Shown here piece by piece: positions 1 to 11,467 of a stretch of 21,962 nt of DNA. Under the pieces are notes generated by a model, which had not been told where the DNA came from, did no database searches, and saw only the letters and a list, made by a program, of their open reading frames with translations. Origin of the DNA: a virus; IMG/VR virus record IMGVR_UViG_3300017671_000003, positions 1 to 21,962 of that record, one strand, 5' to 3'. Numbering within the stretch: position 1 is the stretch's first letter; each line of letters begins with the position of its first letter. The position numbers and the translations under genes were made by a program.

Positions 1-120
1 CGCTCCTCGCCGCGCTCCACGCCGCGCTCCACGCCGCGCTCAACGCCGCGCTCCACGCCGCGCTCCACGCCGCGCTCCTCGCCGCGCTCCTCGCCGCGCT
101 CCACGCCGCGCTCTCCGCCG
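1..120. repeat. Ten tandem 12-bp repeats encoding AAxS units
   Basis: Ten back-to-back 12-bp units lie here, mostly CGCTCCACGCCG or CGCTCCTCGCCG on the plus strand, with variants CGCTCAACGCCG and CGCTCTCCGCCG. They are in frame with the minus-strand gene that starts at 595 and encode AAWS, AARS, AALS and AAES. All variation falls in the third codon of the unit while the Ala-Ala and Ser codons are invariant. The array touches the left edge and may continue. Confidence 0.95.
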
Positions 121-595
121 CGCTTGCGTTTCTGCGGACGCCGTTAAGCACCGGCATCAACGAAGGCGTGTTCTCAAACGACGTGATTTCTGGAAAGTCG
201 GCCAGCGCGTCGGCTTGTTTTGTCAGGCCAGCAAGCCGAAGCCACGCGGGCGTTTGAGTGCGGACATACCAATCGGCGGCCATCGTCGCCCGGCGGGATT
301 CAAGGGCCTTGGACCCGCGTGTTCCTATCAGGTGCGGGATCAACGGCGTTAGCAGCCGGACTCGCTCCGCGTCGTTCGGTAGCGCGTCGTTCCATGACAC
401 CATGAAGGCGGTGATGACAGGGCATGTGCAGGCCGGATGATCCGACCACGGCTCGCCAGCGACGTAGGAGACCGCCTCCATGACGCACATCGCGCGGTCG
501 TTTTCTTTGCTGCCTCCAGCCTTCAGGACGATTTCAGGCAAACGCTCAAAGCGTTCAGGGATTATTTTAGAAGTCATTTCGGTTTCCTGGGTCAT
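1..595 (-). CDS. Repeat-containing phage protein (partial, runs off left edge)
   Basis: This reading frame starts at ATG 595 and stays open to the window edge, giving 198 complete residues with no stop. Residues 1-155 are an ordinary globular-looking sequence that I do not recognise (for example VSYVAGEPWSDHPACTCPV near residue 42). From about residue 157 it becomes ten consecutive four-residue units of the form Ala-Ala-x-Ser, where x is Glu, Trp, Arg, Arg, Trp, Trp, Leu, Trp, Trp, Arg. The start ATG overlaps the stop of the upstream gene in an ATGA, so it is coupled to the leftward early operon and is its most distal gene here. Repeats of this Ala/Trp/Arg type are known in uncharacterised phage and bacterial proteins; I infer a helical repeat region but no function. 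The C-terminus is not visible. Confidence 0.8.
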   Translation of the reverse strand, partial: MTQETEMTSKIIPERFERLPEIVLKAGGSKENDRAMCVMEAVSYVAGEPWSDHPACTCPVITAFMVSWNDALPNDAERVRLLTPLIPHLIGTRGSKALESRRATMAADWYVRTQTPAWLRLAGLTKQADALADFPEITSFENTPSLMPVLNGVRRNASAAESAAWSAARSAARSAAWSAAWSAALSAAWSAAWSAARS

Positions 596-912
596 GCGGC
601 TTCTCCAAACAGATCCGGCTGGGCGCTCGACAGGCTCTCCAGCCATGCGTTGATGTCGGGCTCGTCGATGGCGCGGCGGATGCGGGCGATACCGGCGTCG
701 ATCGCTTCCTGACGGGTCGGGGTGATGCGGGACGGTGCCGGCCAACGTCCCAACGGCTCGCCAAGGCCCAGCATGTCCCCGTGGTGCCGGTGGCAGTCCA
801 CGGCCCATGTCCAGCCGCCCTCAACCCGTGCCAGACGGATCATGGCCGACGCGCGCTTTGTCTTCGGCATGGCCAGAACTTCGTCCGGGTCCATGGGCTC
901 GAAGTCGCTCAC
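592..912 (-). CDS. Small early protein with C-terminal QPDLF motif
   Basis: A 106-residue protein starting at GTG 912, which overlaps the previous gene's TGA as GTGA. I do not recognise the family. It is mixed alpha/beta-looking, with a WTWAVDCHRHHGD stretch near residues 34-46. The C-terminus reads SAQPDLFGEAA; QPDLF at residues 98-102 resembles the bacterial sliding-clamp-binding consensus QL(S/D)LF in four of five positions. That would fit a protein in a recombination/replication operon, but it is only a motif match. It ends in Ala-Ala, like ten other early proteins here, and its TGA overlaps the ATG of the next gene. Confidence 0.75.
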   Translation of the reverse strand: MSDFEPMDPDEVLAMPKTKRASAMIRLARVEGGWTWAVDCHRHHGDMLGLGEPLGRWPAPSRITPTRQEAIDAGIARIRRAIDEPDINAWLESLSSAQPDLFGEAA

Positions 913-3709: not shown

Positions 3710-4074
3710 GCTGCGGCCTCCAGTGCTGCGGCGGGCGGTGTGGGATCGGTGTCGTCGTCGTCGTTCTCGGCGGCTTCCTTCGCCAGCCGTGCGGCCATGC
3801 GCTTGGCGGCGAGAGGCAGACGGCAGCGAAGGGCCTCCAGCTCGATCCGCAGACCTGACAGGGCTTGCCGGTCCAGATCGGCCGCTTCCGGTTCCATCCG
3901 GTCACGGGGATGGGCGTCGAAGCTGTCCTCCAGCCGATCAATGGCGTCGCGGAGGATGTCGAAGGCCAGCGTGTCTCCGGTCAGATCGGCCAGCGCCTTC
4001 ACGTCGGGGTCGTTGGGGGCGATCTGCGCCATGACGCGGGGCATGACGTCGGCAATGGGGATCAGGCCGGGCAT
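3706..4074 (-). CDS. Early protein of unknown function, 122 residues
   Basis: An acidic, helical protein. I take ATG 4074, which overlaps the upstream TGA as TGATG; a GTG one codon earlier (4077) is an alternative. It starts MPGLIPIADVMPRVMAQIAP, has long charged helices in the middle, and then an Asp run (AENDDDDTDPTPP) before the ending ALEAAA. I do not recognise the family. It is the second gene of the leftward operon. The terminal Ala run places it among the eleven early proteins ending in Ala-Ala. Confidence 0.75.
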   Translation of the reverse strand: MPGLIPIADVMPRVMAQIAPNDPDVKALADLTGDTLAFDILRDAIDRLEDSFDAHPRDRMEPEAADLDRQALSGLRIELEALRCRLPLAAKRMAARLAKEAAENDDDDTDPTPPAAALEAAA

Positions 4075-4427
4075 CACGCGGCCTCCGGCATGTCGGCAAT
4101 GAACGGATAGGCGTCCCGAGCGGCAACGCGGCGGGCCAGTTCGTCATAGGCAGCGGCCATGATGACGGACGCGGCTTCCGGGCCATCGCGGCACTCGTCG
4201 CCAGCGGCCTCAATGAACCCATCCCATTCGTCAGGATCGACGGTCAGGAAGGCTTCTTCGCCAAGGGCCCAGCCCTTGTTCGTGAAGTCCAGCATCGAGG
4301 CGTAGGGGGCCTCGTGCGGAGCAGCCTCCAGATAGGCGTCCTGCGCGTCCTGGAGGCGTTGGGCGTCCGTGCGAACGTCCCAAGGCTGGAGCGCGTTCAG
4401 CGGAGCGATGCGTGTGGTGGAAAGCAT
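4074..4427 (-). CDS. First gene of the leftward early operon, unknown function
   Basis: A 117-residue protein starting at ATG 4427, with a GGGGAC ribosome-binding-like stretch about eight bases upstream on the minus strand. It is the promoter-proximal gene of the leftward operon, so it should be the earliest leftward product. It contains SMLDFTNKGWALGEEAFLTV near 44-63 and DEWDGFIEAAGDECRD near 66-81, is acidic, and ends DMPEAA. No family recognised. Position alone makes a host-takeover or anti-host role conceivable, without direct support. Confidence 0.78.
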   Translation of the reverse strand: MLSTTRIAPLNALQPWDVRTDAQRLQDAQDAYLEAAPHEAPYASMLDFTNKGWALGEEAFLTVDPDEWDGFIEAAGDECRDGPEAASVIMAAAYDELARRVAARDAYPFIADMPEAA

Positions 4428-4453
4428 GGGGTGTCCCCGTTCTTGATGGGGAG

Positions 4454-4482
4454 ACTGTGCATTCCTGCACGGCGCATGTCAA
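4454..4482 (-). promoter_or_regulatory. Leftward early promoter (PL-like)
   Basis: On the minus strand a perfect TTGACA (4482-4477) is followed, after 17 bases, by CACAGT (4459-4454) in the -10 position, about 27 bases before the start codon at 4427. The -10 match is poor, so the assignment leans on the -35, the spacing, and the operator filling the spacer. It would drive the eleven-gene leftward operon. Confidence 0.55.
4457..4470. promoter_or_regulatory. Operator O1 of the leftward promoter
   Basis: GTGCATTCCTGCAC, a 5-base inverted repeat around a 4-base centre. The identical 14-mer occurs at 5670-5683 in the rightward promoter. It sits between the -35 and -10 elements of the leftward promoter, the expected position for a repressor operator. 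Confidence 0.7.
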
Positions 4483-4494
4483 TGCACAAATGCA
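4483..4494. promoter_or_regulatory. Possible operator O2 of the leftward promoter
   Basis: TGCACAAATGCA has the same TGCA-N4-TGCA core as the main operator, centred 25 bp from it and directly upstream of the -35 box. A GTGCA half site overlaps it on the minus strand. It is also close to where the divergent lipoprotein promoter should be. Confidence 0.5.
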
Positions 4495-4550
4495 CGGTTT
4501 CTGTGTTCGGGCTTTAGGTTACCGTCAGCTGCGCAATCGGAGAGGGTTGA

Positions 4551-4934
4551 ATGAAAAAGTTGATTACAGTTGTGGCGTGTGCGGCGGTGACGCTGTCAGC
4601 GTGCGCGTCGTCGCCGGATCGCATCCAAGCGGCATACGTCTCGCCGCTCCAGTATCAGCACCTGAGCTGCGATCAGATCAGAGTTGAGATCACTCGGATC
4701 AGCGGGCGTGTGGCGGAGGTGACCGGGCAGCAACGGCGCCAGGCCAACAACGACGCCGTGGCGATGGGGGTGGGTCTAGTCATCTTCTGGCCAGCCTTGT
4801 TCTTCTTGGCTGGCGGCAACGATCGGCGGGACGAACTCGCCCGGCTGAAGGGCGAGTATGACGCCCTAGAGGTTGTGGCCAATGAGAAGCAGTGCTCGTT
4901 TGCCGCCGAAATGAGGGCTTCTGCGGCTTCCTAA
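4551..4934 (+). CDS. Predicted lipoprotein, candidate lysogenic-conversion gene
   Basis: A 127-residue protein with a clear lipoprotein signal: MKKLITVVACAAVTLSAC, with LSAC at 15-18 and Cys18 as the lipidation site. Ala at the next position would favour outer-membrane sorting in a Gram-negative cell. The mature part has a helical region at 40-65, a hydrophobic stretch at about 69-88, a charged helix and a second Cys pair candidate (Cys40, Cys115). Similar small lipoproteins with a NNDAVAMGVGLVIFWPALFF-like segment occur in many proteobacteria and prophages, function unknown. A good ribosome site (GGAGAGG) precedes ATG. It is the only plus-strand gene between the early operon and the repressor, and its TAA overlaps the repressor's TAG tail to tail. 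That is a typical spot for a gene expressed in the lysogen. Confidence 0.85.
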   Translation: MKKLITVVACAAVTLSACASSPDRIQAAYVSPLQYQHLSCDQIRVEITRISGRVAEVTGQQRRQANNDAVAMGVGLVIFWPALFFLAGGNDRRDELARLKGEYDALEVVANEKQCSFAAEMRASAAS

Positions 4935-5611
4935 AACCGCGTGATTTTGGCCAGCAACAGGCCAGTGATTTGAACCTCAATGTCAGACCCCGTTTCGTCG
5001 TCGAGGCGGACGGGGTCTTTCCATCTGGGGTTCGTAGAGCGGGGCCACAGTACGACGCCGCTCGGCGTCAACTCGACCTCTTTCAGGGTGATTTCGCGCA
5101 GGCCGCCGCCGTCCCGCGTGCGCGTGACCTCGACCACCATGCCGGTGTTGAGGTTGATGCCGGCCGCCATGAAATCGACGATGTGGGCCAAGTCGCCCGG
5201 ATAAACGCCGCGTGCATTCATCGAGTCGCCTCGGACCTCGCGGACCCACTGCGGCGCGTGGGGATAGCGCGGGTCCAACAGAACCGGCATCATCGGCGGG
5301 TCGTCTTGCGGGCTGTCGTCCACCTGCAGGAAAGCTCCCGCCTGAATAGGACCGAGCAACGGTAGCTGGGTCGGCAGCGGCGCAAACACCGGCCCGACCG
5401 CCAAGCCCTCTGGAAGATCCAGTCCGGCCGCCTCAGCGATTTTCCGGAGCGTCGCAGGCTTTGACGTGAACTTGAACGACGGGTCGTTCAACGGGCGCGT
5501 GATCGTAGTAGGTGCCACGCCCGCTTTCTTAGCCAGGGCATGGGGTTTTAACCCTGACGCCTTCAGGGCGCGGGTGAGAAAAGCGCGGGCTTCGTCGGCG
5601 ATCTCGGCCAT
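4931..5611 (-). CDS. Self-cleaving phage repressor (HTH + S24/LexA-like peptidase)
   Basis: A 226-residue CI-type repressor. Residues 1-65 form an XRE-like helix-turn-helix (KPHALAKKAGVAPTTITRPL at 22-41). Residues 83-226 are an S24 peptidase domain: cleavage site Ala91-Gly92 in GPIQAGAF, nucleophile Ser130 in VRGDSMNARG, then GVYPGDLAHIVD, and the likely general-base Lys177 in REITLKEVE. All parts needed for RecA-stimulated self-cleavage are therefore visible, which predicts SOS-inducible lysogeny. ATG 5611 has no ribosome-binding sequence upstream; a GTG five codons upstream (5626) is an alternative start. The gene lies divergent from the Cro-like gene across a shared operator region, like the lambda immunity region. 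Confidence 0.93.
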   Translation of the reverse strand: MAEIADEARAFLTRALKASGLKPHALAKKAGVAPTTITRPLNDPSFKFTSKPATLRKIAEAAGLDLPEGLAVGPVFAPLPTQLPLLGPIQAGAFLQVDDSPQDDPPMMPVLLDPRYPHAPQWVREVRGDSMNARGVYPGDLAHIVDFMAAGINLNTGMVVEVTRTRDGGGLREITLKEVELTPSGVVLWPRSTNPRWKDPVRLDDETGSDIEVQITGLLLAKITRF

Positions 5612-5647
5612 GGCGCGATTGTGCACAAGCGAACGCAGGCCGCTTGT

Positions 5648-5659
5648 TGCATTTCGGCA
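5648..5659. promoter_or_regulatory. Possible operator O2 of the rightward promoter
   Basis: TGCATTTCGGCA matches the TGCA-N4-TGCA core with one mismatch. Its centre is 23 bp from the main rightward operator, next to the -35 box. A lone TGCA at 5622-5625 could be the remnant of a third site near the repressor's own promoter, but its second half is poor. Confidence 0.4.
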
Positions 5660-5688
5660 TTGACGTATCGTGCATTCCTGCACAATAT
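5660..5688 (+). promoter_or_regulatory. Rightward early promoter (PR-like)
   Basis: TTGACG at 5660-5665, a 17-base spacer, and CAATAT at 5683-5688. Transcription would begin about at 5695-5696, that is at or beside the ATG of the Cro-like gene. The operator GTGCATTCCTGCAC fills the spacer and touches the -10. Confidence 0.55.
5670..5683. promoter_or_regulatory. Operator O1 of the rightward promoter
   Basis: GTGCATTCCTGCAC, an exact copy of the 14-mer at 4457-4470. It lies between the -35 and -10 of the rightward promoter. Two exact copies flanking the repressor and lipoprotein genes, both inside promoters, are the main evidence that this is the repressor's binding site. Confidence 0.72.
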
Positions 5689-5695
5689 CCGCGTC

Positions 5696-5929
5696 ATGAA
5701 ACACGTCGCCCCCGAAGTGATCGAACTCGAAGCCGACGCCGAGGCCCACGGGGTCAAGATGGCGGAGGTGCTGGCCGCTGCCGACGTCAATCCGACGACG
5801 TGGTGGCGCTGGCGCAATGTTGGCGTCGAGCCGCGAATGCCGACGTTCCGCAAGGTGCGTCACGAGTTGGACCGGCGCATCGCGACCCTCCCCGCCAACG
5901 ACACCGCAGCCTCCCAAGAGGCCGCGTAA
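5696..5929 (+). CDS. Cro-like HTH regulator
   Basis: A 77-residue protein, first gene of the rightward operon and divergent from the repressor. Residues 20-55 form a helix-turn-helix (MAEVLAAADVNPTTWWRWRN at 22-41, then VEPRMPTFRKV), the type seen in small regulators of alphaproteobacterial phages. By position it should be the Cro equivalent, competing with the repressor for the shared operators. ATG 5696 has no ribosome-binding sequence; with the predicted promoter ending at 5688 the message may begin at the ATG itself. It ends QEAA. The next 100 bases contain a large inverted repeat. Confidence 0.8.
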   Translation: MKHVAPEVIELEADAEAHGVKMAEVLAAADVNPTTWWRWRNVGVEPRMPTFRKVRHELDRRIATLPANDTAASQEAA

Positions 5930-5963
5930 CCGATGCAGCGCGACACCCCTCCCCGCGCTGCTG

Positions 5964-6009
5964 GTCCCGGCTCGATGTTGCGAGCCCCCCTGAGCCGTCG
6001 AGCCGGGAC
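5964..6009. terminator. Strong hairpin after the Cro-like gene (tR1-like candidate)
   Basis: A perfect 12-bp inverted repeat, GTCCCGGCTCGA at 5964-5975 and TCGAGCCGGGAC at 5998-6009, with a 22-base loop. Inside the left half a shorter competing hairpin is possible (CTCG...CGAG, 5972-5985). There is no T run after it, so it is not a classical intrinsic terminator. It lies between the first and second genes of the rightward operon, where lambda has tR1 and nut sites. Confidence 0.4.
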
Positions 6010-6032
6010 GAACCCTTTCACCGGAGGTTCCG

Positions 6033-6329
6033 ATGCTGACCGTTGATAAGCTGACCGACTACATCGCCGTCTGTCGCCTCCTGTCGATTTTGAACGACAA
6101 GCTGGAGACGGGGCGGCCCGATGACGTTGACGACGTTCGGGAGACCCTGGCGGAACTGTGCCGACGCATCGAGCCTGAAATCCCGGTCATCAAGGGGATC
6201 ATTGCCCAGCTTGAGGCCGTAGAGAAGCTCTACCTCGCGCAGAGCCCCGGTGGCGGTCAGCCCGCTCCATACCCTTACCCCGCCAACGATACCCATTCCG
6301 TCACTCCCACTGCGCCCTCTCTCGCCTGA
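6033..6329 (+). CDS. Early protein of unknown function, 98 residues
   Basis: A 98-residue protein with a strong ribosome site (GGAGG, seven bases before ATG 6033). Residues 1-70 are predicted almost all helical (KLTDYIAVCRLLSILNDKLE at 6-25, and IKGIIAQLEAVEKLYLAQSP at 53-72); the last 27 are a Pro/Gly/Ser-rich tail. No family recognised. It is the second gene of the rightward operon, just after a large hairpin, so it could be subject to termination control. Confidence 0.72.
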   Translation: MLTVDKLTDYIAVCRLLSILNDKLETGRPDDVDDVRETLAELCRRIEPEIPVIKGIIAQLEAVEKLYLAQSPGGGQPAPYPYPANDTHSVTPTAPSLA

Positions 6330-6347: not shown

Positions 6348-6806
6348 TTGCCCCACGGGACCATCATGCAACCCCTTGACCCCTCGGAACTCAAAGCCCT
6401 GTTCGCCCAGCTTGTGGACGCCATCGGCACACAGGACGCGGCGGCGGCCTTCCTCGGCATATCCCGCCAGCGTGTCGGGCAACTGATCGGCACCTCATGG
6501 CCGGACCTTCCGACCATCCTGCAGGTGGTGAAGCTGGAGGCCGTCTGCGGTCAGGCGGTCGTGACCGGGGCGCTGGCCCGGCGTGTGGAAGGCGAGCAAC
6601 GGGCCGATGCGCTCTCGACCGGCGTCAGGGCGTGCGCAGCGGCCTCGGTCTCCCTGTCCGCGCTTCATGACGCTCAATCCGATGGCCTGATCGACCTGAC
6701 CGAACACAAGTCCGTCGCCACCAAGGCCCGTGAGGCTCTGGACGCGGCCCAAGCTCACTACGACGCCGTCATGGCCGCCCGGCCCAAGCTGGAGGTGGTG
6801 GGGTGA
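6348..6806 (+). CDS. HTH DNA-binding protein, possible CII-like regulator
   Basis: About 152 residues. A GGGGAG ribosome site nine bases upstream favours the TTG start at 6348; ATG 6366, six codons later, is the alternative. Residues 29-49 read QDAAAAFLGISRQRVGQLIG, a good helix-turn-helix, followed by a helical domain to about 110 and a C-terminal coiled-coil-like helix at 115-148. The HTH recalls Cro/CI-type sequence-specific regulators, and the position in the rightward operon recalls lambda cII. The regulatory target is not known. It overlaps the next tiny gene by GTGA. Confidence 0.72.
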   Translation: MPHGTIMQPLDPSELKALFAQLVDAIGTQDAAAAFLGISRQRVGQLIGTSWPDLPTILQVVKLEAVCGQAVVTGALARRVEGEQRADALSTGVRACAAASVSLSALHDAQSDGLIDLTEHKSVATKAREALDAAQAHYDAVMAARPKLEVVG

Positions 6807-6955
6807 TCGCCCGCCTCCTCTCTTCATGGCGTTACAGCCGCTTCATGGCCGCGTCCAAGCGTGCCGAGCGCAACGCCGTTTCCACACAATCCATCGGACG
6901 CATCCGGGCCAATCGCCGGGCCGTCGTCCATGCCGCTCTGGCGAGGGCGAAATGA
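6803..6955 (+). CDS. Tiny basic protein, 50 residues
   Basis: A 50-residue ORF from GTG 6803 to TGA 6955, with GTGA overlap upstream and ATGA overlap downstream, and GGAGGTGG as ribosome site. It begins VIARLLSSWRYSRFMAASKR and is very basic and Arg-rich, with no membrane segment. No family recognised. The double coupling and the lack of any other gene between two solid neighbours support it. Binding nucleic acid is conceivable from charge alone. Confidence 0.62.
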   Translation: MIARLLSSWRYSRFMAASKRAERNAVSTQSIGRIRANRRAVVHAALARAK

Positions 6956-7836
6956 GCAAGGCCGCATTCACACCGGAGAGCGACGCTCAGTTTTCCGCCT
7001 TCTGGCACGAGGGCCAGATGACCATCGAAGACCTCGCCGACCGGTTCGGGATTTCAAAGGCGACGGTCTATGACTGGCGCGTCCGTCTCGGGCTTCCGGC
7101 CCGGCTCGTTCAAGCCTCGCACCCCGAACGGGACCGAATCTGCGAACTGTGGAAGCGGGGCCTGTCGTCCGGCGAGATCGCCAAGATCATTCGCAAGTCG
7201 CGCGGCGCGGTTATGGGCGTCGTTTACCGGGCCGGTCTGACCGACCAGAGCCGGACGAGCGCGACCCGATCCATCCGCACGGTCCACGGGCTGAGAACCC
7301 TGCCGCCGCCTTTCACGCCGGAACAGGACGCACAACTGCGCCAGATGGCGGGGGAAGGCATCAGCCGGACGAACGCCGCCCGTCGCCTGGGTATGTCGGA
7401 CAGCCGCGTCAGGGACCGCATCAAGGCCCTCGCTCTGGTGTGGACCAACCCCAAGTCGGCCGCTGACAGCGCGTGGCAGAAGAAGGCCAAGGTCTCGGAC
7501 GTCGAACGCCAAGCCGCCACGGAAGCGGGCCTCGCCATCCTCGCCGCCGCGACCGACGAACCGGGACCGGAAGCCGTGCGGATGCTGGATCGTCGCACGT
7601 TTGGCCAGTGCGCTTGGCCCGTTGGCGAGGCGACCGGGGCGGATCAGCTCTGCTGCGGCAAGCCCATCCCCGATGGGGCCTCGGGCGTCCGTCAGTCCTA
7701 TTGCGCCGGCCATGGGATGCGGGCGGTGAGCCGGACCTTCGTCCGCGCCCCCATCGTCCATCAGGACCGCAGTGTCGCCGCCGCGCCGCGCCGCACACCG
7801 TCGAATGACGATCACCTCTGGGACGTGGCCGCATGA
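6952..7836 (+). CDS. GcrA-family regulator with three HTH motifs
   Basis: A 294-residue protein. Three helix-turn-helix units are visible: 9-48 (IEDLADRFGISKATVYDWRV), 57-96 (HPERDRICELWKRGLSSGEI then AKIIRKSRGAVMGVVYRAGL, the closest to the GcrA N-terminal HTH), and 121-163 (FTPEQDAQLRQMAGEGISRT and onward). The C-terminal part at 212-260 matches the GcrA C-terminal domain: FGQCAWPVGEATG, CCGKPIP, then QSYCAGHGMRAV, with Cys220, Cys234/235, Cys251 and His254 as possible metal ligands. Host GcrA, around 170 residues with one HTH, binds sigma70 RNA polymerase and activates promoters with methylated GANTC. This phage form is much longer. It may redirect polymerase or cell-cycle genes, but this is inference. 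It ends DVAA and overlaps both neighbours by ATGA. Confidence 0.85.
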   Translation: MSKAAFTPESDAQFSAFWHEGQMTIEDLADRFGISKATVYDWRVRLGLPARLVQASHPERDRICELWKRGLSSGEIAKIIRKSRGAVMGVVYRAGLTDQSRTSATRSIRTVHGLRTLPPPFTPEQDAQLRQMAGEGISRTNAARRLGMSDSRVRDRIKALALVWTNPKSAADSAWQKKAKVSDVERQAATEAGLAILAAATDEPGPEAVRMLDRRTFGQCAWPVGEATGADQLCCGKPIPDGASGVRQSYCAGHGMRAVSRTFVRAPIVHQDRSVAAAPRRTPSNDDHLWDVAA

Positions 7837-8168: not shown

Positions 8169-9535
8169 AGGCGCTCGAGTCAGAACAGGCCGTCATCGGA
8201 TGCGCCTTTTCCTTCCCCGAGAACGATGCGGCATTTGAGCGCCTGCGCCCGGAGGCCTTCAGTGAGCCCTTGCACGCCCTGATCTGGGAAGAACTGGAGC
8301 GCGCCCGGTCACAAGGCCTGCTGTTTGACCCGGCCCTCGTTGCCCAGCGCATCGCCGGGCCGACCTTCGACGCCATGGGCGGCATCCGCTATCTGCTGGA
8401 CATGGCCGACAAGGCGGTCCTTTGGTCGCTGGACGCCCATATCGAGACCGTGGCGGATCGGGCCATGCGGCGGGCGTTAAAGGCCCTGACGGACCAGGCA
8501 TCGGCCAAAGCGGGGATGATCGACGTTCCGGCCGCCGACCTGTTGTCGGACCTCGAGCGCGGCGCGGCCGACATTGCCCGCCATGACGCGGCCCCCGCCA
8601 CCCCTGTTGGTCTGGACGCCATCGAATACCTCGAGGCCGCTCGAGAGGGCCGGTTCAATGGCGTGTCGGTTGGGCTGGACTGTCTGGACCGGATCACCGG
8701 AGGCATCCAGCGCGACGCGGTCTGGATTGTCGGGGGCCGGACTTCGATGGGGAAGTCGATCTTCCAGACCGTCATCCCCCAGGCCATCGCAGAGCAGGGC
8801 CGGGGCGTCCTGATGTTCTCGCTCGAGATGCCGCGCCGGGAGGTTCAAGCCCGCCTGATCGCCAGCATCGCCTATGACCCCGATCTGGTCCCCTATCGCA
8901 ACGACGGGGGCAACGTGGAGTTTGCCCAGCTCCTGCGGGGCACGGGCACCCGGGAGCAGCGGGAGCGCGCCAACGCCGCCGCCCGCAAGCTGGCCAGTCT
9001 GCCGATGTCCGTCGTGGACAAGGGCGGCCTGTCTCTGGACGACATCATCAACCAGTCGCGCCGGCAAGTCCGGGCATGGGAACGGGCCGGGGTAGAACCC
9101 GGGGCCATTGTCATTGATCACCTGGGGCTGGTGTCCTCTCGGATCAGCCGCGACAGCAAGGCCGCCGAAGTGGCCGACACTGTTGATCGACTGAAATCCG
9201 CCGCCAAGCTGATCGGCGCGCCGATCATTGCCGCTGCCCAGATCAACCGGGGGCCGGAGGCCCGGAACGACAAGCGCCCGACCATGGGTGACCTGAACTG
9301 GTCCGGCTCGATTGAGCAGATCGCGGACCTTGTCTGCCTCCTCTACCGGGACGCCTACTACCTCGAGCGGTCGCCCTCCCAAGAGGATCAGGACCGGGCC
9401 TTTCTCGAGAAGTATGAGCTTGAGCTCATTGTGCCCAAGAACCGCAGCGGCCCGACATGCACCCTGAAGGCCAAGATTGACACGGCCTGCAACGCGATCT
9501 GGGACGCGCCGGAAGCCGACAGGAGGGCCGCCTAA
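8165..9535 (+). CDS. dnaB: DnaB-type replicative DNA helicase
   Basis: A 456-residue hexameric helicase of the DnaB/RecA fold. N-terminal DnaB domain at 1-105 (ESEQAVIGCAF near 5-15), linker to about 160, then the motor: Walker A GGRTSMGKS at 190-198, FSLEM at 218-222, Walker B with VIDHLG at 316-321, motif 3 AAQINRG at 357-363, and GSIEQIADLV at 381-390. The length is normal for the family. It should unwind the fork during phage replication and be loaded by a neighbour, most likely the replication protein two genes downstream. The ATG at 8165 overlaps the upstream stop, and the TAA overlaps the next ATG as TAATG. It ends RRAA. Confidence 0.95.
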   Translation: MKALESEQAVIGCAFSFPENDAAFERLRPEAFSEPLHALIWEELERARSQGLLFDPALVAQRIAGPTFDAMGGIRYLLDMADKAVLWSLDAHIETVADRAMRRALKALTDQASAKAGMIDVPAADLLSDLERGAADIARHDAAPATPVGLDAIEYLEAAREGRFNGVSVGLDCLDRITGGIQRDAVWIVGGRTSMGKSIFQTVIPQAIAEQGRGVLMFSLEMPRREVQARLIASIAYDPDLVPYRNDGGNVEFAQLLRGTGTREQRERANAAARKLASLPMSVVDKGGLSLDDIINQSRRQVRAWERAGVEPGAIVIDHLGLVSSRISRDSKAAEVADTVDRLKSAAKLIGAPIIAAAQINRGPEARNDKRPTMGDLNWSGSIEQIADLVCLLYRDAYYLERSPSQEDQDRAFLEKYELELIVPKNRSGPTCTLKAKIDTACNAIWDAPEADRRAA

Positions 9536-10074
9536 TGCCATTTCAAGCTCTGGCCTATGCGCGCCGGATTCGCACCGGGAGCCCGGTGTCCAAGCTGGTC
9601 TGGTTGCACCTCGTCGCCGAGAGCCACATTGACGGCTACGCCGAGGTCAACATCGACGAACTGGTCGCGTTCTGCCACGCCCCCAAGAGGGACGTGCTCG
9701 ACGCCTTGGCCACCCTTCGCTCTCTGGGACTGATTTGGTGGCCCGAAGAGCAGTTTCGCCACGCGGACGACTGGGACTGCGTCATCGTCAAGCTGCCATT
9801 GTCCGAAGACAGTCACCACGATCGAAAGCGGCCGAAACTGACCTCGGATCAGATGAAGGCCATCGACGTAGTGCGTTGCCCAGGCTGTCTCAGACAGCAG
9901 AGCACCCACGAGGAAGAGACGGACCCTCGCCATTACTTCCAGGGCGAGTTTCATGTTGACCACATTATCCCGCGCGCTCGCGGCGGGGCTGATGTTGAAG
10001 AGAACCTTCAGCTTCTCTGCCCTCAGTGTAACACTCGCAAGGGTGCCCGCGTTGGCTGGGTCAACCTGCTATGA
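9535..10074 (+). CDS. Winged-helix / HNH nuclease fusion
   Basis: A 179-residue two-part protein. Residues 1-90 look like a winged-helix domain of the replication-initiator type (SKLVWLHLVAESHIDGYAEV at 19-38, then a recognition-helix-like segment to about 66). Residues 113-170 are a classical zinc HNH nuclease: CPGC at 115-118, FHVDHIIPRARGGADVEENL at 139-158, LCPQCNTRKG at 161-170. The metal-binding and catalytic residues His140, Asp142, His143, Asn166 are all present. HNH nucleases of this kind often cut DNA in packaging, mobility or recombination. Here it sits between the helicase and the replication protein and overlaps both. Confidence 0.83.
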   Translation: MPFQALAYARRIRTGSPVSKLVWLHLVAESHIDGYAEVNIDELVAFCHAPKRDVLDALATLRSLGLIWWPEEQFRHADDWDCVIVKLPLSEDSHHDRKRPKLTSDQMKAIDVVRCPGCLRQQSTHEEETDPRHYFQGEFHVDHIIPRARGGADVEENLQLLCPQCNTRKGARVGWVNLL

Positions 10075-10949
10075 GCGGAACGACTTGGACCAAGTTCTAT
10101 TGGTCGGATTGGGAATCTGATCCGGCCCTTCGCCTCTGCTCCCTCGCGGCGCAGGGGCTCTGGATGCGTATGCTCTGCATCGCGTCAGCGCACGACCCAA
10201 TCGGCTACGTCGCGGTAGCTGGTCGGGGCCTCGATGAAACCGCACTCGCTCGCATGACCGGGTGTTCGGGATCTGAGGCCGCCGACCTGCTTGGCGAGCT
10301 AGAACGAAACGGCGTGTTCTCACGCGACCGCACCGGCCGCATCTTCTCGCGCCGCATGGTGAACGATGCCAAGCGCGCCGCAATAGCGCGGAAAAACGGC
10401 AAGATGGGTGGAAACCCAAGCCTAGGAAAAGGCGAGGGAAAAGCGGGGCCGGATAACCCCCCGGATAACCCCCGCCTTAAGACCCAAGAGCCAGAAGCCA
10501 GAAGCCAGAGGAAAGATAGGGAAGCTACGCTTCCTGCGGACCGAAGGCCCGCCGAGCCATGGAAGGCTGACGCGCACTTCAACGACGCGTGGGACGCCAG
10601 CACTCCCGAAATGCGGAAGCGGGCCAAAAGCAAGGCCGTGGCGTGGCGAGAGTGGCGGCGAGCCATCACGATCGAGCAGCCCGACGTGATCGCCAGCGCC
10701 GTCAGGCTCTACGTCCGCACGGATCCTGACGTCGGCAGAACGGGCGGTCCAGGACTTCACCTTTGGCTGAAGGACCGCCGATGGGAGAGCTGCCAGCCGG
10801 ACACTCAGCGGCAGCGCCCCGCCCAGCCCGTCGCCCCCCAAGTTCTCGCCGGCCGCCTCGCCCACTTCTCGAAAACCGGCGAATGGCGTCCCGAGTGGGG
10901 AGACCGCCCCGCCAACGACCTCCCCCGCCAGACCGGAGAAGCCGCATAA
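10071..10949 (+). CDS. Phage replication protein (initiator / helicase loader type)
   Basis: A 292-residue protein. Residues 1-105 form a winged-helix domain (WTKFYWSDWESDPALRLCSL at 6-25, then AAQGLWMRMLCIASAHDPIG) as in many phage replication proteins of the DUF1376/YdaU kind. Residues 115-158 are a disordered linker encoded by direct DNA repeats. Residues 160-250 form a helical domain (HFNDAWDASTPEMRKRAKSK at 168-187, then GLHLWLKDRRWESC) that recalls primosomal and loader-type C-terminal domains. The arrangement parallels lambda O, with an initiator gene containing the origin. It lies two genes after the helicase. It ends GEAA and overlaps the next ATG as TAATG. Confidence 0.78.
   Translation: MSGTTWTKFYWSDWESDPALRLCSLAAQGLWMRMLCIASAHDPIGYVAVAGRGLDETALARMTGCSGSEAADLLGELERNGVFSRDRTGRIFSRRMVNDAKRAAIARKNGKMGGNPSLGKGEGKAGPDNPPDNPRLKTQEPEARSQRKDREATLPADRRPAEPWKADAHFNDAWDASTPEMRKRAKSKAVAWREWRRAITIEQPDVIASAVRLYVRTDPDVGRTGGPGLHLWLKDRRWESCQPDTQRQRPAQPVAPQVLAGRLAHFSKTGEWRPEWGDRPANDLPRQTGEAA
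10449..10509. repeat. Direct repeats in the replication gene, candidate origin
   Basis: Two adjacent exact copies of CCGGATAACCCC (10449-10460 and 10461-10472) are followed 16 bases later by three tandem AGCCAGA copies (10489-10509). They fall in the linker between the two domains of the replication protein, as lambda iterons do in gene O. Such linkers are often repetitive at DNA level, so an origin is a proposal, not a demonstrated role. Confidence 0.4.
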
Positions 10950-11467
10950 TGAAGGTTATCGAGATCACGCGCGGCCTAAGCGCAATCGTGGATGACGAGG
11001 ACTATGATCTTGTCGCCCATCGTCGTTGGCAGGCCAAGCCCGCTGTTCGACAAGTTGAGGGAAAGACAGCTTGGTATGCCCAGGCTCAATTTGATCGCCG
11101 AACAGTGTTCATGCATCGGCTTATACTCGGCGCGGAAAAGGGCCAAGAAGTCGATCACATCAATGGAAATGGATTAGACAACCGACGCGCCAATCTTCGC
11201 TTTTGCAATCGGTCGCAAAACAGCGCGAACACGCGAAGAGACCCTCCCAAATCAGGGTTTCGTGGTGTTTACAGCGACAAGCGGCTTTGGGCTGCGCGCA
11301 TTAGCATAAACGGGAGGCGTCGCAGTCTTGGGATGTTTGAGGACCCGGCTGATGCGGCAAGAGCGTATGACGCGGCGGCAAAGGAAGCCTTTGGCGAGTT
11401 TGCCACCCTTAACTTTCCGCCTCATGCAAACAACAACGAAGCAGCTTTGCAGGACACCGCCGCATGA
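10949..11467 (+). CDS. HNH-AP2 homing-type endonuclease
   Basis: A 172-residue protein with the standard HNH-AP2 layout. The HNH part runs from about 50 to 92: His56, EVDHINGNGLDNRRANLR at 67-84, NRSQNSAN at 87-94. The AP2 DNA-binding part runs 102-156: SGFRGVY, KRLWAARI, GRRRSLGMFEDPADAARAYD, FATLNF. Such genes are mobile, cutting DNA near their own insertion point. The base composition is visibly more AT-rich than the neighbours (for example 11085-11235), which suits recent arrival. Yet it fits exactly into the operon with TAATG and ATGA overlaps and ends DTAA. Confidence 0.92.
   Translation: MKVIEITRGLSAIVDDEDYDLVAHRRWQAKPAVRQVEGKTAWYAQAQFDRRTVFMHRLILGAEKGQEVDHINGNGLDNRRANLRFCNRSQNSANTRRDPPKSGFRGVYSDKRLWAARISINGRRRSLGMFEDPADAARAYDAAAKEAFGEFATLNFPPHANNNEAALQDTAA

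Follow-up and report, generated by a model that had tools for sequence, protein, structure and literature searches.

The probable immunity region and its repeated palindrome

The window analysed here is a whole virus record of 21,962 bp (IMG/VR record IMGVR_UViG_3300017671_000003). It carries a CI-like repressor gene (4931–5611, minus strand) with three kinds of neighbour: (i) a divergent Cro-like gene of 77 amino acids (5696–5929, plus strand), assigned by its position and by an HTH-like sequence seen by eye, without a Pfam or PHROG match of weight, (ii) a lipoprotein-type gene (4551–4934, plus strand), its lipobox also seen by eye, in the slot between cI and the left-hand sites, O_L, and (iii) a leftward operon that begins with a gene of unknown function (4074–4427, minus strand), with genes matching a phage exonuclease family and Rad52/22 to the left of O_L. 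On the right, a candidate CII-like activator gene (6348–6806, plus strand) gives a modest match to PHROG 101 (E 7.7e-7); the CII-type site TTGC-N6-TTGC is missing near cI and cro and occurs in two places only, far from both. The gene at 6946–7836 (plus strand) has a GcrA-family match (E 2.1e-15) and further helix-turn-helix (HTH) matches, and is possibly a phage version of the Caulobacter cell-cycle regulator.

The repressor has an HTH domain and a putative S24-type C-terminal domain. It matches PHROG 4 (transcriptional repressor, E 7.8e-9), and the Pfam families HTH_3 and Peptidase_S24 both fall below their curated cut-offs (for Peptidase_S24, E 7.6e-4 and 19.6 bits against a cut-off of 23.3). 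The structure model is confident only for approximately residues 1–70, an XRE-type helical domain; residues 1–74 of the model align with XRE-type HTH domains such as those of SinR (Z 8.3) and 434 Cro (Z 7.0), which is a widespread fold. The C-terminal half is poorly modelled and its fold is uninformative, and a profile of the repressor against solved structures gives no match at E 0.01. Residues A91-G92, S130 and K177 are presumably the LexA/CI cleavage site and catalytic pair, assigned by motif. Among isolated phages, the repressor finds matches in six records at 29–39% identity, and the DNA of 4400–5720 finds none.

An exact-match scan of the window places GTGCATTCCTGCAC at 4457–4470 (here O_L1) and at 5670–5683 (O_R1). 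The 14-mer is a gapped palindrome, GTGCA-TTCC-TGCAC, which reads GTGCAGGAATGCAC along the leftward promoter pL; these two are the only copies of GTGCA-N4-TGCAC in the record. Both lie behind a −35 box and extend to the presumed −10; relative to transcription, the two copies have opposite orientations. Each is accompanied by a second, weaker site that touches or overlaps the −35 box. On the left this is TGCACAAATGCA (4483–4494), the core of O_L2 (ATGCACAAATGCAC, 4482–4495), which overlaps the −35 box of pL with its centre 25 bp from that of O_L1. On the right it is TGCATTTCGGCA (5648–5659), with one mismatch, the core of O_R2 (TTGCATTTCGGCAT, 5647–5660), at the −35 box of the rightward promoter pR with its centre 23 bp from that of O_R1. 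The initial annotation had described this arrangement, namely identical 14-mers behind TTGAC(A/G) boxes, each with a TGCA-N4-TGCA-like site 23–25 bp away and just upstream of the −35, flanking the repressor and lipoprotein genes, and the sequence confirms the observation.

The −35 boxes, TTGACA for pL (4478–4483, minus strand) and TTGACG for pR (5660–5665, plus strand), are read from the sequence. The −10-like hexamers, both tentative, are CACAGT for pL (4455–4460, minus strand) and CAATAT for pR (5683–5688, plus strand), each with a spacer of 17; neither appears in a strict consensus scan. That strict sigma-70 scan found no promoter in 4300–6100, which means that the −10 boxes either are weak or belong to another type; their match to the E. 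coli consensus is poor.

Taken alone, the repeat is moderately unlikely to arise by chance, which is suggestive and not conclusive. In first-order Markov simulations of the window, GTGCA-N4-TGCAC never occurred two or more times in 400 runs (mean 0.025); 13 of the 400 contained a 5-4-5 palindromic 14-mer of some kind in exact repeat. The window holds 42 repeated exact 14-mers of any kind, against a mean of 7.6 in 100 simulations. Looser patterns are not clearly enriched: the 14-mer with up to three mismatches has five matches (mean 2.2, with 6 of 100 shuffles reaching five), and TGCA-N4-TGCA with one mismatch has six where 7.8 are expected. The operator reading is instead settled by comparison among phages, because there the sites keep their position and covary with the repressor HTH.

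Conservation of the sites among related phages

Searches with the repressor and its domains yield 11 distinct phages, the window included and duplicates dropped, that share the repressor N-terminal domain (class A); L162–L164 (38–48%) and L156–L159 (36–41%) are more distant and are left out of the class counts. Within the genus Brevundimonas, 5 of 131 genomes have a repressor match at 1e-30. The recognition helix A33–D43 (A-P-T-T-I-T-R-P-L-N-D) and the residues A91-G92, S130 and K177 are invariant in all 11 repressors, and the spacing between the starts of the repressor and Cro-like genes is constant across all 11 phages.

The sites hold their positions just as strictly. In all 11 phages the TGCA-N4-TGCA core starts 71 bp (O_R1) and 48 bp (O_R2) ahead of the repressor start codon. 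O_L1 keeps its place behind the −35 box of pL and its 25 bp spacing to O_L2, again in 11 of 11, at the far side of a slot that ranges from 437 to 1,410 bp. Across the 11 phages, 13 of 14 columns of O_R1 and 10 of 14 of O_R2 are invariant; in the spacers next to them the counts are 0 of 4 and 0 of 19. The TTGAC boxes and the sites are nearly invariant, and the short pieces between −35 and first operator (4 bp at pR, 6 bp at pL) vary. Where the 14-mers are altered (O_R1 in L021, O_L1 in L019 and L021), only the four central bases differ. The view that the repeat has no regulatory role and reflects chance or common descent alone could draw on the window's 42 exact 14-mer repeats and on the repeated palindromes seen in 13 of 400 simulations, but it is already hard to hold once the spacers between the sites are seen to have diverged while the sites and their spacing are kept. 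Sites around a diverged repressor-like HTH in L073, a stretch picked by its DNA alone, argue further against it, and this explanation is exceedingly improbable.

A third operator on the right finds no support as a full site in class A. The candidate O_R3 (5621–5634, minus strand), over the presumed −10 of the repressor promoter pRM, consists of an invariant half-site, TGTGCA, in 11 of 11 phages and a degenerate left half that matches at 0–4 of 5 positions, with the N4 spacing not favoured over N2 (29 against 32 of 55). Extra TGCA-N4-TGCA sites occur in L020 and, at −22, in L010 and L011.

Exchange of the DNA-binding domain and the operators

Homologous positions in relatives are not independent observations, and evidence other than shared descent comes only from L073 and the class B and C swaps. 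Five loci share the repressor C-terminal domain and have a different N-terminal domain. Four of them (L005, L022, L144 and L161; class B) carry a second helix-turn-helix, and all four have GGGGGA..TCCCCC-type sites at both flanks; GTGCA-N4-TGCAC is absent from the four class B stretches examined. Conversely, a loose class B pattern has no match in 10 of the 11 class A loci, and in L010 it has one poor match away from the operators. Class A repressors share on average an identity of 0.24 with those of class B (L005, L022 and L144) in the N-terminal domain and of 0.65 in the C-terminal domain. The fifth locus, L023, has a third N-terminal domain and neither motif, with CTGTTGCC repeated in front (by eye); its identity to class A is 0.26 in the N-terminal and 0.76 in the C-terminal domain. 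In the L005 record TGCA-N4-TGCA occurs once, far off, as does a reversed control pattern. Operator class covaries with the DNA-binding domain of the repressor, which amounts to a natural swap of domain and operator together.

The divergent gene of L005 looks, by eye, unlike the class A Cro-like gene, so that DNA-binding domain, operators and Cro seem to have been exchanged together. This confounds repressor with Cro, yet it ties the motif to the immunity region. The sites might serve mainly the Cro-like protein, with the repressor using other sequences; in favour is the apparent exchange of the Cro-like gene along with the operators, which confounds operator class with Cro class. Such a division of labour is unlikely: the sites flank both promoters as expected for a repressor, O_R2 lies at a fixed distance from the repressor gene, and the −35 and −10 boxes are the only further strongly conserved blocks in the divergent region. 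The 14-mers are very probably the main operators, O_L1 and O_R1, of a lambda-type immunity region, at which the CI-like repressor would bind.

A scan for the 14-mer alone, irrespective of any protein, finds at least 120 stretches. Among the 120 matches listed, seven have two or more GTGCA-N4-TGCAC sites, and four of the seven are class A phages; the other 113 have a single site, and the repressor is encoded in only two of these. Also among the matches listed is L073, which has four GTGCA-N4-TGCAC sites and a fifth TGCA-N4-TGCA within L073:5780–6290, surrounding a distant repressor-like HTH (33% identity over residues 1–81). One of its sites, close to where the repressor-like gene begins, is palindromic in full; class A keeps the half-site only at that place. 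No recognised repressor lies beside the sites in L025 (two sites) or L035 (three). The three GTGCA-N4-TGCAC of L035 lie within ∼1 kb (L035:7528–8578).

The initial annotation had also proposed searching phage and host for the motif. Besides the two copies in the phage record, the B. viscosa genome (3.0 Mb) contains two GTGCA-N4-TGCAC, both in its prophage and none in the host part. Roughly three matches would be expected in 3 Mb from base composition, by an arithmetic estimate, so all that a count of two indicates is that the site serves no host regulon, and it is otherwise weak. These matches bear on the idea that the sites belong to a host regulator borrowed by the phage. There is a precedent in Alphaproteobacteria phages reported, in the part of the account available, to be under host CtrA control (PMC9437464), and the window encodes the GcrA-family protein at 6946–7836. 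Against this stand the confinement of both B. viscosa matches to the prophage, from which a host-regulator site was judged unlikely, and the fact that the sites change together with the phage immunity genes; such borrowing is very unlikely.

A putative lambda-type switch and its slot genes

The region is read as a lambda-type immunity region of phages linked to Brevundimonas; each side has two clear operators and not three. In the mechanism that the sequences suggest, a dimer of the CI-like repressor would read GTGCA-N4-TGCAC through its N-terminal helix-turn-helix. Bound at O_R1 it would block RNA polymerase at pR, keeping off cro, the CII-like gene and further rightward genes; at O_L1 it would do the same at pL for the operon with the recombination genes. 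At O_R2, beside the weak pRM, it would probably activate its own gene from the position used by lambda CI. DNA damage would release the repressor by LexA-type self-cleavage at A91-G92, and the Cro-like protein may compete for the same half-sites. We infer all of these steps, from binding and repression to autoactivation, SOS induction and the role of Cro. The core reading of the initial annotation, operators in pL and pR of a lambda-like switch, is supported by positions kept in 11 of 11 phages and by covariation with the HTH; ‘complete’ is too strong, with no clear third operator on either side and only a modest CII-like match.

The spacing on the right is consistent with autoactivation. In lambda, the activating CI sits at −42. 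In every one of the 11 phages, 42.5 bp separate the centre of O_R2 from the repressor start codon downstream, a distance that fits lambda-type activation of the repressor's own promoter if the mRNA is leaderless. The tentative −10-like hexamer of pRM, CACAAT (5618–5623, minus strand), would put the start on the repressor ATG; more generally, CACAAT, CATTAT or CATAGT stands at the place required of a −10 for a message beginning at the start codon. CAATAT at pR would, tentatively, give a leaderless or near-leaderless cro transcript. On the left, 7 of 11 phages have GGAG ahead of the start of the first operon gene, and the window has GGGGA there. Behind the presumed −10 of cro and of cI a ribosome site would not fit. 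This contrast fits leaderless cro and cI mRNAs, which are accordingly predicted. According to the portion of the CP-933P study available (PMC8630535), PRM of lambda is activated by CI bound to OR2, and translation of paaR2 is leaderless ‘like cI’.

Of the 11 phages, 10 carry one or more lipoprotein-type genes in the slot between cI and O_L (4496–4930 in the window), judged by eye from signal peptide and lipobox; a strict pattern caught eight and missed the window and L010, in which a cysteine does lie within the hydrophobic stretch. The slot of L003 encodes a HIRAN-domain protein in place of a lipoprotein, and that of L018 a TerB-like protein in addition. Several families are represented among the lipoproteins, whose genes run against cI except in L018 and L019, where they run with it. 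Those of the window and L010 match PHROG 13472, of unknown function, and a weak match to Cor superinfection exclusion spans residues 1–25 only. Phage lipoproteins that exclude other phages are known, as in the description of Ltp in the accessible part of PMC3952083. The slot is a place to look for superinfection-exclusion genes.

The slot gene may perhaps be driven by a mirror-image promoter at O_L2, which is offered as a lead. In the window, the candidate outward −10 (4515–4525, plus strand) is either TAGGTT (4515–4520) or TACCGT (4520–4525), 26 and 31 bp from the O_L2 centre. A TA-N3-T hexamer lies 30–32 bp from the O_L2 centre in 6 of the 10 phages with a gene reading away from O_L2; the comparable distance from O_R2 to the pRM −10 is 30 bp. 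None of 3,000 shuffles reaches 6 of 10, or 4 of 8 when only one of L015, L016 and L020 is kept, with the qualification that the shuffles preserve base composition only and that the idea was formed after seeing the data. L003, L004 (whose type of slot the B. viscosa prophage has), L010 and L017 do not fit the spacing, the pRM hexamers themselves are without the first T of TA-N3-T, and the window has its second TA-N3-T at 26. A more far-reaching and doubtful proposal is a symmetrical switch, in which the repressor would activate its own gene from O_R2 and the mirror promoter of the slot lipoprotein from O_L2. The lipoprotein, variable and expressed in lysogeny, would perhaps serve superinfection exclusion in the place of lambda rexAB. 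A cassette of O_L, repressor DNA-binding domain, O_R and cro would be swapped around the kept C-terminal domain, and its exchange would change the immunity type.

The gene slot between cI and O_L corresponds to the place of rexAB in lambda. Shared with lambda and 434 are the divergent cI and cro genes, operators in both early promoters with 23–25 bp between centres, O_R2 at the CI-activation distance, LexA-type cleavage residues and recombination genes on the left. Here, by contrast, the operator is another sequence, there are two clear sites per side instead of three, O_L1 and O_R1 lie ∼1.2 kb apart, and the slot holds mostly lipoprotein-type genes that are mostly opposite to cI. Lambda and 434 are themselves described, in the section of the account at hand, as heteroimmune with homologous circuits (PMC6550527). 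The CP-933P immunity region (PaaR2/YdaS/YdaT), whose behaviour is called reminiscent of lambda CI in the available part of PMC8630535, resembles the present one in its leaderless repressor gene (predicted here) and its short divergent intergenic region, and differs in its toxin-antitoxin cargo and unrelated host. In Cluster A mycobacteriophages, as in the present phages, repressor and site motif diverge together among relatives, according to the part of PMC6550527 consulted. Their stoperators, however, number 20–30 scattered sites per genome against two full sites per record here, and the two GTGCA-N4-TGCAC found in the window and in each of the eight class A virus records searched show no dispersal of that type; a looser search finds three TGCA-N4-TGCA in each of the L003 and L004 records. 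The portions of the open-access literature covered by a search yielded no described switch with a GTGCA-N4-TGCAC operator.

For Brevundimonas-linked temperate phages, the 14-mer and the repressor form a testable repressor-operator pair. Class B supplies a second pair, with a related C-terminal domain and another DNA-binding domain, and the natural swap connects the motif with the immunity region with no need of an experiment. Elsewhere in the window, an ORF running off the left end (2–808, minus strand) finishes in tandem repeats of the SAAWSAARSAAW type (∼2–140), the product of 9535–10074 (plus strand) has an HNH-type ending, and that of 10763–11467 (plus strand) is an HNH/AP2-like homing-endonuclease-type protein, the last two assigned by eye.
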